From a virus: 25,385 nt of DNA. Location: IMG/VR virus record IMGVR_UViG_3300009129_000082, positions 1 through 25,385 of that record, one strand, 5' to 3'. A program made the position numbers and the translations under genes. Shown in pieces: positions 4,201 through 21,936 of the stretch (position 1 is the first letter of the stretch; each line of letters opens with the position of its first letter). Under the pieces are notes generated by a model. The model had not been told where the DNA came from. It did not search any database and was given only the letters and a program-made list of their open reading frames with translations.

Positions 4201-5064
4201 AATGATTTAGCAACTGCATATACGGAATTACAACAACCAGAGATTATATTGAATGGCTATGAAGAGGATGATGTATTTGGCTTTGTTCCAATAACAGATA
4301 CTGATGAAATAACACCAGCATTTAGACATTCATTGGGTATTAATGTCCAAAATTTGCCAATTACATTACCAATAAAATTTATTACAAAACTACAAGGTGC
4401 TAAGGTAACACAACTGAATTATAGAAACAACTGGAAAGAATTAGGAAATAGTAATTGGTTATCATTGATTAATTCCACACCCGAGAATGCTATACCTGCT
4501 GCTGATGTAGAATCTGCTGTATATCCTGCAACAATAGCTAGTGGCGGTTACGATATTACATTACCACAGGAATACATATTACCTGATAAATTCGGATTTA
4601 CAGATAATGATAGATATCTAATTGGTAAGAATACTTGTGGCTCATACCTTTATTTGGCCCCATCAACCGTTGATCAATTATTTGTGGATGGTACTGATGT
4701 AAGAGCAAGTAAATTTGTTCAAAATGGCGATGGTAATGGAATTGAAATTCCTATTATCTTTCAGTTTAGGATGACTGACTATTTTGGTGAGGGTAATACT
4801 GGTACTGGAATTGTAGGTGGGTATGATTCAAGTGCAACTGTACAACTTACTGCCAAAAGAAAAAAAATTAACTTGGCATACACAAGACAGGTTGGGATAG
4901 ACATTTATGTAAGAAACGAGACTATATTTTCCTTTGACCTACAACTCACTGCCAAGTATAGAAGGGAAAGCCTATCTCAGAAAATCGACATAGTTGGTAA
5001 AAAGGTTTCAAAATCTCGTGAACAAATAAGAGTCAAAAAATCGCAAATAAAAAATCTTAGATAA
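1291..5064 (+). CDS. Large tail structural protein (1257 aa) with FN3-like domain and coiled coils
   Basis: The ATG follows an A-rich stretch with no Shine-Dalgarno sequence. The N-terminus (1-80) resembles an oligomerisation helix followed by short beta strands. Residues about 420-490 are highly charged (Lys/Glu/Asp/Ser) and likely a coiled coil. Residues about 500-645 look like a fibronectin type III-like domain: a FFEIPEP strand, a Tyr-rich middle, then VEIRVRSISEAGWP and SDYSETVTIEFP, which are typical FN3 F- and G-strand features also seen in central tail/host-specificity proteins. A second short coiled coil lies near 713-740. The C-terminal ~30 residues are strongly basic. The stop codon overlaps the ATG of the next gene by one base (TAATG), suggesting coupled translation. 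Probably a baseplate-hub or fibre-attachment protein. The coding call is secure, the exact role is not. Confidence 0.85.
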   Translation: MAETTNSFSSVLAQFTRLQTQVLEILQGLTEAVGTSAETVTLTFKTDTGEDVTYTVPGFGYLEAQIQRLDTTVIKLMGLDSSDANIRMPDGSFKKIYQSRLINAPTRISGLTVPDEFAYKNNWFFESFLSPALYIPIDISQYVLPDADKILVKRIILNTTTEDEIEYFNQTYNGKNNVNYEDLIISLQQNNITFFQDEEVKDLPLSVIRYDGTFAVFKYEDITQENPDGTTSKRRKYFLDKLTYSDGLLNTLDTIDLKVDDQLVSGESIYKVDTIDIANNAITVKKVSGYDGISIGVDSLRIYSEKFATREAQVGVGFGERQIVFLKAVDPNFNIVSTDWSDGIGFYSNDLIIATSVGQKTLEQFYNTEVTDFGQQFLSAAKEKVVPSLYGETPTAPTLDAENLKVTRINDHKLNTDEVENVNKKAADKVRLNSEIKELDASIDKKKEELSNTKFSSDAERRGVKNELDSLIREKTSKSSLYASIVQELAVLGEDKPSALDKPKFRIRGFFEIPEPKTNDKTGNQYVIQFIKEYRYIKVDGSATEAKQYEFVDAEGQLLRGTYSNWNVIKSDIRKKYYNDETGLYEWATEDIENADITNINQFDIPISKGENVEIRVRSISEAGWPINPLISDYSETVTIEFPAELITEDEATIAIQQATDEANRVAFQQELDSRGLDIHLSRSFTVGDKYYAHEAERIASGFFTDEGSVITLLEKLRTMQTEIEFLRAKVEEIKGELSITIIDPSGNKTSINNGDKVNFFAGFYKDFVDALPVGERKGAIVSAAYKILLENAESTPLELISRLPGGIGERVPNTVDPGNNTTIPSFFGTGYSWVNEAISPPDKDYNASRRYDLVPVVNNSIDPSETNTGSKISSNFHQSQQLPSQFLYARYTDIGLKSNSGDLFYDSDGATVETRYDGSYDPTLRSLIPDTPIPGSTAFIWDGTYTGVTPNGTGNITDFCIHTDHPLLNNDLATAYTELQQPEIILNGYEEDDVFGFVPITDTDEITPAFRHSLGINVQNLPITLPIKFITKLQGAKVTQLNYRNNWKELGNSNWLSLINSTPENAIPAADVESAVYPATIASGGYDITLPQEYILPDKFGFTDNDRYLIGKNTCGSYLYLAPSTVDQLFVDGTDVRASKFVQNGDGNGIEIPIIFQFRMTDYFGEGNTGTGIVGGYDSSATVQLTAKRKKINLAYTRQVGIDIYVRNETIFSFDLQLTAKYRRESLSQKIDIVGKKVSKSREQIRVKKSQIKNLR

Positions 5065-8000
5065 TGGCAGACTTTATCGATAATGCCAATTGGTATTCTT
5101 TTAATTTTTCTAATGAACAGATACTTCAAGGCAAACAAACTAAGTTTCTTAGATTTCAGAATAATATTCATAATATAGATCCGGCAACACATTCGGGTCC
5201 CTCTTTTGTTGCAGGTGCCGAGAATATGTATATTATAGCAATTCCGGAAATAATTAATGTTGATCCTAACACACAAACAAGTACAACAGATGATCCTTAT
5301 GAAGGTCAAGTATTCTTCAATGGCGGTGACATACAAAAAATTCAAAGGGCTCTTAAGGATGAACTTAAAGACACTAACTTTAATACAGAGGCAACCGATA
5401 ACTATGGAACCTCAACTAATGACATGTTTTGGTATGGCGGGCCAGAAACAGGTACATCAGCTAATGACTATAAACAGTATATTCCTAATCCATCATCTAT
5501 ATCCAGTCTAGGATATTTAGAATTATTGCCTAGCGGTGCATTAATTACACAATACACTGATGAACCAATTAATGGTATTAATGGCGTTCCATTGCCAAAT
5601 CCTGGTGAAAAGCATAATTTTAGAATAGATTATACAGGTGATAAACCTGTGGTGGTAAAGATCACATTTTTGATCACAACTGCAAATCCAAAGTTACCAT
5701 TAACAACCTTTGCTAACTTTGCCCCCTTAATTAATCCAGGTATACCCAAAGATGGTGATGTGCAACTAAATGTGAATACGTGGGAATATTTTGATGGTGG
5801 CTGGAATCCATTAGGCTTTGACACTACATTGGGTGAATGGCCAACGTATGGGATAAAACATTTACATGAAAAGGAACAATGGACACCATCTACATTATGG
5901 GATGGTCATTGGTTTGATTTCCAAGAAACTTATATATTTTGTTATCCAGAAAGTACCGAGAAGCCTTCTAGGGAAACAGATTATTGGATTGATAAGGAAT
6001 TATCTCCCGCTAGTATAAATAATGACGAATCCTCATTTATGCTAATGAGAACAAATCCAAAACTAAGTGGGAATGTTAAAATAGTTATTGATTCGGCCGG
6101 GACAATGTTTATGGATACAATAGAGGCAAATGATGAATTATCAAATGCAAAATATAAGAAAAATAAGTTAAGTCCTAATGGTAGCTATCCAGTAGATTTG
6201 CATAAATATTTCTCTGGGTTATCACCTGAAATAATGTATGATCTTAAGCAAATTGATGACCAATATCTTAATGCTAAACAAACATATGCAGAGCAATATG
6301 ATTTTTTCTATGGATACGGTGCAGAGCAATTGCCTAGTAAGTACTATGAAGAAAATTTCAAACTTTTTGCACCTTTATGGGCAAGAAAGGAATTACCAGA
6401 TTTCTTTGTTATATTTAAGGCGCCAGGACCTATCAACCAAGATACATTCTTAAATAATTCAAAGGAAACAATTCTTAACGAATTTATGAGCGGTGCAAGT
6501 ATTATTGACACATTCGACATGAGACCAGGATCAAATCTCGGTGAATATTTAGGTAAAATGGTTAACGATTCTAGGTTTAATGAACAACCGCTTAAAATAT
6601 CATATGAAAATGACACGCTATCTACATGGTCAGGTATTTCATATCCAGATGGAATTCTTTGCGAGAAGGGTGAATTCTTATATGATACACTAAGAACAGA
6701 TCAATCTATAACTGACTTTGAAGAATTCATAACAACTGGATTTCAGCGCAATCAAATGATCTCATCAAATCTATTTAATTTAGAATTTTTGTTTGATGAT
6801 GAAGAAGCAAATGATTATGAAATTAATCGGTATTTTGGATTATACATCAACGAAATTGAATTGGCAAAATTTGAAATATTCGGTGATATGTTCAAACATA
6901 TTAATGGTCAAACACCAGAACCTAAAAAGGATGTTGACGCGGAACCATACTCAGTAAAACCATTTAATCAAACAAACTTAAATGGAATTATCCTTCCTGT
7001 AGATTATTATCAAGGAATAGGTCCAATTGGAGAACCGGAAAATGTAGGATTAGTCCAAGGAAAATTACCTTATAGTACCAGTGTAGATGATCCATTCCGA
7101 GTATTTTATGTTAGAGATAGAAACGATGTAATTGATAGAATAAAATCAATAAATGAATTTGAAATAGGTATACCTGATACTGTAGGATATCATAAGTATA
7201 CAGGACTTCAGTTAATAGACACAAAGGCTAATATATCCGATTACGCAGGAATAAGTAAGCTTACAACTCAAATACCTGCAGGATTATTGAGCAAGGGCCA
7301 TTCACAGATAGTAATAGATTTCGAGGAAACTATTATTGGCGAATCTATTCTAGAAAGCTTGGAAATATTAGAAATAGAATGGGTGGATATTAATCAGGAT
7401 AAGCAACTGTGGAAATGCGTGGCAAATCCTACTGGATTACAGCCTGGCGATGCTTGGGATTTCCCTGTTTACAACCCAGATGAATTTCTATATGTCAATA
7501 CATTCTCACCTGAAGGAACCGCAGAAACTGTTGCACAGGCCTTTACAACCTGTATTAATAGCTTTAATAACAAAGCATTTGAGGCATGGAATGATGGTTC
7601 ACGAGTTTATATTAAATCGGAATTGGCAGGAACTGTTGGTAATGGCTTTATATTCAGGCGTAAATTGGTACTTAATTCAATTATAGATAATGTTAAATTC
7701 TATGGTTTCAAACCAAACTTTACAGGAAATTATACCGATATCACACCTACACTGGATGGTACAACGGATGGTAGCTTACTTTATTTTTCTGAGGATCCTG
7801 TGGATTCACAAGCTAATGAATATGAGATTAAAATCATTAACATTATTAAGACATACAAATTAATTATAGAATTATCTTCTCAGCTTTTAGGTGGTGAGCA
7901 ATTTACAATAAATGGCGTGCAATTTACCGAAACCGCAGTACCTGCATTACCAGGAGATTTTACAATGTCAGGCATAAGTGCTGCACAAGATATTATAATT

Positions 8001-11000: not shown

Positions 11001-11882
11001 AGGGAAGATTCTACCATGACTAATCATTATAACATTGATTACTTATTATCCAATACCAGATTTGGTATAGAGTATAATAACTTTGGCATATTAAGCAATC
11101 TATTTTACTCAAAGATTTCTGATGGGCAATTAATGAAAATATCTTCGACATCGGAATACAAAAGTTTATATCCTTTAATTGGTGAGGTTGCAATAAATAA
11201 TAAAAACTTCTTTGCATTCAATAGTAACTGGGACAATAATTACTATGACTTTTATATTTCTACCGAATCTTCAGATCCAAAGGAAGGCACATATGAACTT
11301 AAGGAACAAAAATCATTTTTTGGGAGTAAATTAATGAACACACCTAAAGTATACGAAATCAATACATTTAATGATACTGAGATAACATATGAGCTATCAA
11401 CACCGCTACTATCCACCGATATACCTACCCTAACCGATGGTAAAAAAGGAGCCATATTACCAGACTCTGCAAAACCTGCAATCAATATTAAGTTATTTGC
11501 GGATACACGATTAATCCGTGAAATGATAGATAACGGTGCTACTGACGAATTCCTAAAACTTAAAGCGTTAGGAATAACAAGATTTGCCACGCTAACAGAT
11601 GATGAAATAATAGAAGCTACTAAGGAATATCTTAGATTAAATATTCTAAACTTATACACTGTAACCAACGTATCTGTCTATGTAAAATCTGATGCCGATG
11701 AAGAAACTGATGAAATTATCAGAATTGATTTGACAGAGTCACAGAAAAATGCGTTGAATTATATTCTTACAAAAGACTCTAAAATAAATCAAATAGAGGA
11801 TTATTACTTTGAGATTCAACAGGAAATTGATACAAAAAAATATAGATCATTTTCTTTCTCTATAACTTTAGAAAGAATATGA
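5064..11882 (+). CDS. Giant virion protein (2272 aa), probable tail/baseplate or fibre component
   Basis: One uninterrupted frame of 2272 codons, far longer than any T4 tail protein (gp34, the largest, is about 1290 aa). It is rich in Asn, Asp, Tyr, Phe and Ile and lacks a signal peptide or membrane segment. No catalytic motif is evident. Two stretches, about residues 812-866 and 942-1022, resemble a small alpha/beta module common in phage sheath and baseplate proteins: a TAETVAQAF-type helix, then strands ending in AGTVGNGF, and in the second copy GGEQFTINGVQFTE followed by a helix and strands. The last ~150 residues are helical and charged. It begins inside the stop of the preceding structural gene and is followed 31 bases later by the collagen-like fibre gene, so virion assembly is the natural context. 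I cannot assign a T4 gene number. Confidence 0.85.
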   Translation: MADFIDNANWYSFNFSNEQILQGKQTKFLRFQNNIHNIDPATHSGPSFVAGAENMYIIAIPEIINVDPNTQTSTTDDPYEGQVFFNGGDIQKIQRALKDELKDTNFNTEATDNYGTSTNDMFWYGGPETGTSANDYKQYIPNPSSISSLGYLELLPSGALITQYTDEPINGINGVPLPNPGEKHNFRIDYTGDKPVVVKITFLITTANPKLPLTTFANFAPLINPGIPKDGDVQLNVNTWEYFDGGWNPLGFDTTLGEWPTYGIKHLHEKEQWTPSTLWDGHWFDFQETYIFCYPESTEKPSRETDYWIDKELSPASINNDESSFMLMRTNPKLSGNVKIVIDSAGTMFMDTIEANDELSNAKYKKNKLSPNGSYPVDLHKYFSGLSPEIMYDLKQIDDQYLNAKQTYAEQYDFFYGYGAEQLPSKYYEENFKLFAPLWARKELPDFFVIFKAPGPINQDTFLNNSKETILNEFMSGASIIDTFDMRPGSNLGEYLGKMVNDSRFNEQPLKISYENDTLSTWSGISYPDGILCEKGEFLYDTLRTDQSITDFEEFITTGFQRNQMISSNLFNLEFLFDDEEANDYEINRYFGLYINEIELAKFEIFGDMFKHINGQTPEPKKDVDAEPYSVKPFNQTNLNGIILPVDYYQGIGPIGEPENVGLVQGKLPYSTSVDDPFRVFYVRDRNDVIDRIKSINEFEIGIPDTVGYHKYTGLQLIDTKANISDYAGISKLTTQIPAGLLSKGHSQIVIDFEETIIGESILESLEILEIEWVDINQDKQLWKCVANPTGLQPGDAWDFPVYNPDEFLYVNTFSPEGTAETVAQAFTTCINSFNNKAFEAWNDGSRVYIKSELAGTVGNGFIFRRKLVLNSIIDNVKFYGFKPNFTGNYTDITPTLDGTTDGSLLYFSEDPVDSQANEYEIKIINIIKTYKLIIELSSQLLGGEQFTINGVQFTETAVPALPGDFTMSGISAAQDIIIIQNIIDSTYIPDFASSAVNATTLEMVFTSAIPYTEDVATVAYTFNPAAPSGIGPNDYETSSAQVEVRKNGGIVATPSLVLEGPIVFNTYDDFGIKFGLEAFPGVIYNINDIWVIKSADTTIEQRFIGGNDRNRARSSATIINTENINPLHWFQAQKGKYSRLKQWDVQGNSVYKLPNLENPILDNSSTLSGYADLATDVIIQLSDKDFEFYKTLENKIVGFDAFEPTLGIMSFLPVKDFDFDWILSDYAYSPNAELLRYYEKFEIPPSEYQELELYQSYEITQGEVQLQGWNTITDVWENIQITEGQRWSGNVIYDTISVPNFNTFLPNYYYDTFLTSGKIIDADPVDARTQWNYLHRNYKAMTEVQNYSKFRVCNIGLVDNAIIEKYTYSLDKNLDAFNGFLGLSDFFSSEDENELEILIQNGDIERFFFDQLISEYDRLRENFNKEYAVKSKVVPYINKWTQTGTDCRDNKYRLNTSLAFGITNFSPDTEIRERNPRLHTHEFYYLDEFPDDFPTDLLANSRSHFFQNISEPVNGIQSWYDLFKQNDNDWFSKYFTIGYPTELDRDNGNKVEKKTEQRYITTDFVKGDETVQGLFRGGKFRIIEVDPITGENIPSSKKYDSYKFSSILRIKRLAFDLTEPPAEIEFIANDKFKTILMITTLYISDYRIQAGGYGYTFLYAGADLLDGSNVKFENMNVSSVLDDYAQQSYLTSVEVQRHFDSFFGGGLIKYADIKLSGIFDTSISPINVTPRVLNAITVTSEEFSPTNEMFSVDGQDYDMNVFYNPDAIDFGQLKINVMERGEFSEISQFIPDYPSTLPLNYIINNQAGLDQNIIIDSDKITIAGDFNLPYSSIGAERSPAGFPIRKRDYIPNIPLDNNYVSANAWYLSAGKDYLNKRLEEISYGELLNKINSNDRSVTYNTITDSGIVEGNYFFQLLDFDRIDKQNRLMVIEDLDKPEVYQETSLVGFDIIDESETETIFRHRGRFEPKTLPIVNYWLREDSTMTNHYNIDYLLSNTRFGIEYNNFGILSNLFYSKISDGQLMKISSTSEYKSLYPLIGEVAINNKNFFAFNSNWDNNYYDFYISTESSDPKEGTYELKEQKSFFGSKLMNTPKVYEINTFNDTEITYELSTPLLSTDIPTLTDGKKGAILPDSAKPAINIKLFADTRLIREMIDNGATDEFLKLKALGITRFATLTDDEIIEATKEYLRLNILNLYTVTNVSVYVKSDADEETDEIIRIDLTESQKNALNYILTKDSKINQIEDYYFEIQQEIDTKKYRSFSFSITLERI

Positions 11883-20846: not shown

Positions 20847-20870
20847 AAATTCTTTTCTTATATGAAAACC

Positions 20871-20892
20871 TTTTTCAATTAAGGATATATAA
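20871..20892 (+). promoter_or_regulatory. Candidate promoter of the SSB gene: TTTTTC-N5-AGGATATATA
   Basis: TTTTTC at 20871-20876 is followed five bases later by AGGATATATA at 20882-20891. The same pair, with three bases between, occurs at 25302-25320. It lies about 95 bases before the SSB start, the right position for a promoter that would produce the hairpin leader described separately. It does not match the canonical Bacteroidota TAnnTTTG -7 box, which would fit a phage-specific sigma or coactivator. Confidence 0.4.
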
Positions 20893-20908
20893 TATCTAAA
20901 TAACTAAC

Positions 20909-20955
20909 GAGAATCTTAACAATCTTAATTACCTTATAGAAAACTTAAGCTTCTC
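20909..20955 (+). promoter_or_regulatory. Hairpin in the SSB (gene 32-like) mRNA leader
   Basis: GAGAATCTTAA (20909-20919) pairs with TTAAGCTTCTC (20945-20955) over eleven positions with one T-C mismatch, enclosing a 25-base loop. A second AATCTTAA at 20921-20928 repeats part of the left arm and could pair alternatively with the right arm. The 30 bases between the stem and the ATG (20956-20985) are A-rich, with a single G, and look unstructured. T4 gene 32 has an upstream pseudoknot followed by an unstructured A/U-rich stretch through which gp32 represses its own translation. The layout here is the same in outline. I found no obvious second stem of a pseudoknot. Confidence 0.5.
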
Positions 20956-20985
20956 AAATAACAACTCAAAATAAACTAAAAAGTA

Positions 20986-21936
20986 ATGGAAAATCTAAAT
21001 GATCTATTTAATTTGCAAGCTGACGATCTAGTTCAGAAGCAAACGTCAAGTAAAACTGACATCTACAAGCCCACAGCCGATAAAGGTAAAGAGGGCGTTT
21101 ATTCAGCAGTCGTGCGATTTATACCTTGGCACGAGAATCCGAAGAAATCAATAATGAAAAAATGGACTTGCTGGTTGGTGGATCCACTAACCGATAAAGG
21201 TCGTTATGTTGATTGCCCTTCCTCTGCTGGAGAAAAATCTATTTTGCAAGACATGTATTGGAAACTTAAAAAATCTGATAGTGTTGCAGAACAAAAATTA
21301 GCTGATAACTTTTCTCGAAGACAATCAATGTCAACACTAATCCAAGTTATTAAGGATGATAACAATCCTGATATGGTTGGAAAGGTTATGGTTTGGCCTT
21401 TTGGCGTAAAAATCTATAATAAAATTCAAGATGTAATGCAACCTGAGTTTGGTACACCTCACATTCCTTTTGATCTATTTGAAGGGAAGGCATTCCACAT
21501 AAAAATTAAAAAGGTTGCAGGATATAATAACTACGATGATTGTAAATTCTTAGATAACGTTGCCCCTATTACAATAGATGATGAGCCAATGTCAAAAACT
21601 CCAGAGAATATGCAAAAAATAGTTGAATATTTGAAAGATGCTTCTCCAGATCTTAACAAATATGACTTCACACCTTGGGATCAGGATACTACATCATATG
21701 TTAATAATGTAGTACAAAATTCAGTACCAGGACACCGAATGGTTGAGGCAGTATCTAAAACTAATGCTGCGCAATCTGCATCGGTTGCACCTAAAGTTGT
21801 AAATGATCCAACAGCACAGGTAAAACCTCAGGCCGCGCCAGCCACAACTACTGCGGAATTACCCGATCTTGATACGGCTAGTGATTTAACATTAGACGAT
21901 ACTAGTTTTGATGATGACCTCTACGCAGACCTCTAA
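20986..21936 (+). CDS. 32: Single-stranded DNA-binding protein, T4 gp32-like
   Basis: This 316-aa protein (T4 gp32 is 301) matches gp32 at several sites. AVVRFIPW (41-48) corresponds to T4's AVIRFLP, GKVMVWPFGVKIYNKI (132-147) to GKVFKYRFGKKIWDKI, and VAGYNNYDDCKFL (177-189) followed by IDDE to VSGFSNYDESKFL. The C-terminus (about 290-316) is acidic, ending SFDDDLYADL, like gp32's protein-interaction tail. gp32 coats replication and recombination intermediates cooperatively. The zinc site is not intact: the T4 Cys87/Cys90 pair has no counterpart, and only Cys62 and Cys77 are present in that region. Its start is clear (A-rich context, ATG at 20986). It overlaps the primase gene at its end. Likely autoregulated through its leader hairpin. 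Confidence 0.92.
   Translation: MENLNDLFNLQADDLVQKQTSSKTDIYKPTADKGKEGVYSAVVRFIPWHENPKKSIMKKWTCWLVDPLTDKGRYVDCPSSAGEKSILQDMYWKLKKSDSVAEQKLADNFSRRQSMSTLIQVIKDDNNPDMVGKVMVWPFGVKIYNKIQDVMQPEFGTPHIPFDLFEGKAFHIKIKKVAGYNNYDDCKFLDNVAPITIDDEPMSKTPENMQKIVEYLKDASPDLNKYDFTPWDQDTTSYVNNVVQNSVPGHRMVEAVSKTNAAQSASVAPKVVNDPTAQVKPQAAPATTTAELPDLDTASDLTLDDTSFDDDLYADL

Follow-up and report, generated by a model that had tools for sequence, protein, structure and literature searches.

The DNA analysed here, referred to as the window, is a virus fragment of 25,385 bases from IMG/VR, in which a gene for an SSB is preceded by a short leader. The features of this region are the following, with the basis of each assignment in brackets.

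20864..20893, + strand: putative phage promoter, GAAAACCTTTTT..GGATATATAAT (clade conservation)
20896..20980, + strand: nine CU(U/C)A(A) elements, evenly spaced (shuffles, counts compared with other genes)
20909..20919, + strand: 5' arm of a hairpin, GAGAAUCUUAA (folding, shuffles)
20920..20944, + strand: hairpin loop, 25 nt (sequence)
20945..20955, + strand: 3' arm of the hairpin, UUAAGCUUCUC (folding, shuffles)
20956..20985, + strand: A-rich unstructured tail that reaches the start codon and contains the final two elements of the array (unpaired probability)
20986..21936, + strand: SSB gene, gp32 fold, acidic C-terminal tail (PF08804, phrog_224, AlphaFold model)

The gene downstream of the leader encodes an SSB of the gp32 fold. 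Its product matches PF08804 (gp32) with an E value of 4e-14 in a profile search and phrog_224 with an E value of 6e-36, and an AlphaFold model (mean pLDDT 69.8, ends disordered) matches the T4/RB69 gp32 core with an E value of about 1e-13, the Foldseek TM score by target against 1gpc/2a1k being about 0.77. Among named records, the nearest (34–39% identity) belong to Prevotella Lak megaphages and to a 462-kb uncultured phage, and the closest SSBs in IMG/VR are 58–62% identical to that of the window. A first protein query against IMG/VR gave no match; alignment queries did, and yielded two partly overlapping sets of 80 SSB loci. A DNA search with the leader in a phage collection returned short weak matches only, and no strains of more than 80% identity to the window were found in the collections searched. 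One locus with a related SSB and leader (L173) is filed under an Aenigmatarchaeota MAG and is probably a misbinned phage contig.

The original prediction described an 11-position stem with one mismatch, a 25-base loop and a 30-nt A-rich tail, and both reading and folding of the leader bear this out. Ten of the 11 arm positions are paired, with pair probabilities of 0.86–1.00 and a mismatch at U20914/C20950. The MFE of 20893-20985 is -7.9 kcal/mol, with z between -2.5 (200 shuffles) and -2.9; equally stable folds occur in 1.3% of 2000 shuffles, which makes the stability modestly unusual, and in a wider 174-nt context z is only -0.9. The loop resembles the leader of a relative, L112 (UUACCUUAUAGAA / GUACCUUAUAGAA). 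In the tail, 20 of the 30 nt before the ATG at 20986 are A and the mean unpaired probability is 0.89. Against an average of 48% A (sd 12%) for 15 further window leaders, the 67% found here is a mild excess, which, taken alone, could be due to the usual mode of initiation in hosts of the Bacteroidota type. No Rfam family was matched at gathering score in the window and 20 related loci.

Two further pairings were considered and rejected. The sequence AATCTTAA is present twice, at 20912 and 20921, and it had been proposed that the copies offer competing pairings that could act as a switch. Blocking the first copy leaves the leader with a best fold of only -0.9 kcal/mol as compared to -7.9 kcal/mol, and a two-state switch from this repeat was rejected on these energies. 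A pseudoknot between the loop and the start region was also discarded, since the duplex (-4.7 kcal/mol) is no better than the shuffle mean (-4.8 kcal/mol) and 48% of the shuffles do as well, nested folding being a method that cannot reveal complex knots.

The leader further contains a repeat array that the original prediction overlooked. Its nine elements start at 20896, 20904, 20915, 20924, 20933, 20944, 20953, 20965 and 20976, thus with spacings of 8, 11, 9, 9, 11, 9, 12 and 11 nt, and the array runs through the hairpin too, the loop containing two whole elements and the beginning of a third, to end a few bases before the AUG. A run of at least eight elements all 8–12 nt apart occurred in 0 of 20000 dinucleotide shuffles, and the next longest runs in the window have three elements on the + strand and four on the - strand. 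The element count alone is not above that in the dinucleotide shuffles (9 against a mean of 7.3, P 0.15) because these preserve composition; it is the spacing that is unusual. Counted as CT[TC]?AA, a unit defined after inspection of the leaders, the window SSB leader holds 8 elements, against a mean of 0.87 and a maximum of 3 in the 15 other leaders. The SSB leader has the highest such count in five of six phages compared, and in the remaining one (L009) it ties with two others.

The array recurs in the clade to which the window belongs. In 43 clade SSB leaders, which are distinct but share ancestry and hence are not independent, CU(U/C)AA elements average 5.05 per 80 nt, as compared to 0.73 per 80 nt in 262 leaders of other genes at these loci, for which crude ORFs served as gene calls. 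The SSB leaders are periodic, with z values of 12.3 at 8 nt, 9 at 9 nt, 6–7 at 16/17 nt and about 4 at 24/25 nt, and no such periodicity was found in the leaders of other genes at the same loci. The clade leaders are also poor in G (7.6%). Only three other leaders have five or more elements, and all of these precede homing endonuclease ORFs directly upstream of SSB (L018 2237-2749, L139 2233-2943, L150 2381-2914). These ORFs are situated between the promoter and array and the SSB gene, with array on both sides; phrog_314 is matched by all three and a GIY-YIG domain is present in those of L018 and L150, a neighbourhood similar to that in T4, where SegG lies beside gene 32. When whole records were scanned, an exact pattern of three CTAAA units was confined to the SSB leader (L008, L010, L015), whereas a looser CTNAA pattern also matched elsewhere in eight records, partly in coding repeats, and the specificity of the array therefore rests on the leader counts. 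Judged by these, the CU(U/C)AA array is an SSB-specific and conserved feature of the leader. One SSB group (L130, L138, L143-L171; 11 tree rows) has no CU array. Several of its members (L143, L147, L156, L164 and kin) carry a GGGAAAC motif just past TATATA, with short complementary arms on the flanks (CUAAG/CUUAG, CCUAG/CUUAGG).

Upstream of the array, the clade shares a putative promoter with the consensus AAAACTTT, about 14 nt, TGAATATATAA, and an AAAC element upstream of the promoter box is conserved as well. Of the 43 leaders of the window clade, 27 have the box [A/G]ATATATA in the 200 nt before SSB, as do all 46 leaders of a sister clade with GGCA units, against a background of 0.05 per 200 nt. 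It is missing within 200 nt of SSB in the nearest kin L008, L009, L108 and L110; the close kin without it near SSB (L008, L108-L110, L112-L115) presumably use a promoter further upstream. Since the promoter lies at 20864-20893, window transcripts should include the hairpin. A transcript start downstream of the hairpin, which would have spoken against the original prediction, is thus made less plausible by a conserved promoter upstream of it. More [A/G]ATATATA boxes are present at 11882, 18757 and 25313 of the window, either just before the start of an ORF or close to the end of the window, and are probably further phage promoters.

In its exact form, the GAGAA/UUCUC stem is peculiar to the window phage. 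Hairpins of the nearest kin, with SSBs 60–62% identical to that of the window, differ and are weaker or unrecognisable, four of these leaders (L008, L009, L108, L110) being without a clear hairpin, and the three IMG/VR contigs with the exact stem pattern, none among the SSB loci, were taken as chance matches. Clade leaders as a whole show no global excess of structure over shuffles (mean z +0.29). Palindromes of at least 8 nt are nevertheless found in 60% of them, against 21% of shuffles and 15% of other genes, with the cores GGTACC, AGCGCT, GGCGCC and AGGCCT; the window leader lacks a G+C-rich core and has CTTAAG only. Of the clade leaders, 34 have a palindromic core that can be recognised, and in these the flanks of the core pair better with their own partner than with a permuted one (-4.25 versus -2.83 kcal/mol, z -5.1, 0 of 3000 permutations), a preference that was repeated in a 29-leader set below 70% identity. 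Among the controls, reversal gave z -0.7 and sliding of the 5' flank z -0.4, and sliding of the 3' flank gave z -2.4, which is not fully flat. The pairing of flanks with their own partners argues that the clade maintains a hairpin in the interval from promoter to start codon with its sequence left free, and that the window carries its own version. In some relatives (L014, L107, L128, L137), the apical part of the hairpin contains perfect G+C-rich palindromes (GGTACC, AGCGCT, GGCGCC); apical palindromes possibly allow leader–leader kissing or form a DNA operator.

Sister lineages have periodic leaders with other units. In a large GGC[AG] group there are 5.15 units per SSB leader, against 0.33 in other genes, spaced 10–13 nt apart, and TTAAAG-type units, 7–11 nt apart, are found in L023-L030 and in the Lak phages; the type of unit matches the groups of the SSB protein tree. 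Subgroup alignments of the GGCA clade reveal hairpins with compensatory pairs, while Alifold found nothing over the whole set because the subgroups misalign. Compensating changes in relatives, proposed earlier as a check on the stem, were encountered as some compensatory pairs in the GGCA clade and as partner-specific flanks in the window clade, whereas the window stem itself is absent from kin. The Lak leaders have an upstream hairpin (L002, 2813-2822 paired with 2860-2868, AAATTAGAAC/GTTCAATTT; equivalents in L003 and L005), the upper stem of which, compared by eye, covaries from strain to strain (GGCAC/GTGTC, GGCGTT/AACGTC, AAACAC/GTGTTT). Like the window, Lak megaphages and their uncultured relatives combine a TATATAA promoter-like box, a hairpin and periodic repeats to the start codon, with TTTAAAG or GGCA/G as the unit instead of CU(U/C)AA; their SSB leaders carry no annotation in the records used.

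Among known operators, the closest is that of T4 gene 32, in which a 5' pseudoknot that serves for nucleation and UUAAA/UAAA repeats extending to the ribosome site are both needed for repression (PMC535899). As in the window, a structured 5' element is followed by short repeats in a weakly structured, A/U-rich region and by a gp32-fold SSB gene; the T4 repeats overlap the initiation site (PMC535899) and the window array reaches near the AUG. The window differs from T4 in having a simple hairpin instead of a pseudoknot, a unit spacing of 8–12 nt for CU(U/C)AA against 4–5 nt for the T4 TTAA units, and nine units that include the hairpin; the T4-type UAAA is contained in only some of them. The gene 32 leader of RB49 retains UUAA/UUAAA repeats without a pseudoknot, according to a description of the sequence only (PMC535899), so that there, as in the window clade, the repeat array outlasts the structured element, although the unit differs from CU(U/C)AA. 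The T4/RB69 gene 43 operator differs in that it belongs to a DNA polymerase gene, has a conserved loop sequence and lacks a repeat array. The T4-like plan that had been proposed for the window recurs in its clade and in sister clades, with pairing kept despite sequence change; what that proposal lacked was the array.

From these comparisons we consider it probable that the 90-nt leader is a T4-like autogenous translational operator of the SSB gene. Transcription would start just past the TATATAAT box, at about 20898-20905, and the mRNA would offer a hairpin together with an array of CU(U/C)AA units, poor in G and largely unpaired, about one SSB site (8–12 nt) apart. The site size of T4 gp32 is roughly 7 nt, and the array spacing is near that value. 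When SSB is in excess of the available single-stranded DNA, it would bind the array cooperatively, roughly one molecule per unit and possibly nucleating at the hairpin, and by covering the initiation region it would stop translation.

The array could instead be a translation enhancer or standby site for strong SD-independent initiation, bound by the ribosome or bS1 and without autoregulation. Bacteroidota, which may not be the phylum of the host, initiate without SD, with A-rich motifs before the start and low structure (PMC6847099), and the clade leaders are G-poor and no more folded than shuffles. For an enhancer there would be no need of a strict 8-nt phase or of a unit that changes with the lineage along the SSB tree, and array and periodicity are absent from other genes of the same phages; we regard this explanation as unlikely. 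A different RNA-binding protein of phage or host, RegA-like or other, might also read the array and regulate the SSB mRNA, given that SSB is not the sole protein able to bind such repeats and that T4 RegA represses via unstructured initiation regions (PMC3014915). Proteins of the RegA type have many target genes, whereas the array is found at the SSB leader alone and its unit type follows SSB phylogeny, which leaves such a regulator distinctly improbable; PF01818 was unmatched in 8 records, and this is uninformative since a control gave no signal either.

Other objections concern the paired element. It is doubtful, but to be taken seriously, that the window hairpin is a chance fold without a role of its own, with only promoter and array mattering: the frequency of equally stable shuffles, the positive mean z of the clade and the absence of the stem sequence from kin all fit this, whereas relatives with a palindromic core maintain a hairpin at the same place by pairing, and, measured against shuffles, only one of the 43 clade leaders exceeds the window stem in stability. 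A chance hairpin would be compatible with the operator explanation, and a role for the array leaves room for one of the hairpin. Alternatively, the palindromes that follow the promoter might be operators in the DNA, bound by a dimeric transcription factor, with control at transcription. Their enrichment over shuffles agrees with this, as does the fact that the four cores listed above are palindromic to the centre, which a hairpin would not require. The flanks, however, pair past the core with partner-specific complementarity, the window has CTTAAG in place of a G+C-rich core, and the array is left unexplained, so that transcriptional control through these palindromes appears very improbable.

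How gp32-type proteins, with little sequence preference, pick their own mRNA has been described as unclear (PMC535899). A unit that differs between SSB lineages at near-constant spacing would be a natural experiment on specificity, in which sequence, phasing and lack of structure could be separated by lineage swaps. Such leaders are also a recognisable mark of SSB control regions in huge uncultured phages. A wider and more tentative proposal, which we hold to be possible though short of an even chance, is that a large group of huge gp32-bearing uncultured phages controls SSB by lineage-specific leader arrays, phased at roughly one SSB footprint, that co-evolve with the SSB, and that in many of these phages two leaders may pair through self-complementary hairpin loops; an SSB, a type of protein usually considered sequence-independent, would then read a phased RNA code.

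Two observations on sister lineages may be added. In L019, L025 and L031-L087, a conserved leader RNA lies some 150 nt ahead of the SSB start. It has 5–6 GGCA/GGCG units, two hairpins in which some pairs are compensatory, and AAAAGGCA immediately before the start codon; the members that were scanned matched no Rfam family, and the RNA is a candidate new structured RNA. In a Lak record (L005), a RecA-like ORF at 4238-5212 has a C-terminal part resembling the beginning of an intein, and a homing-endonuclease-like ORF comes next.
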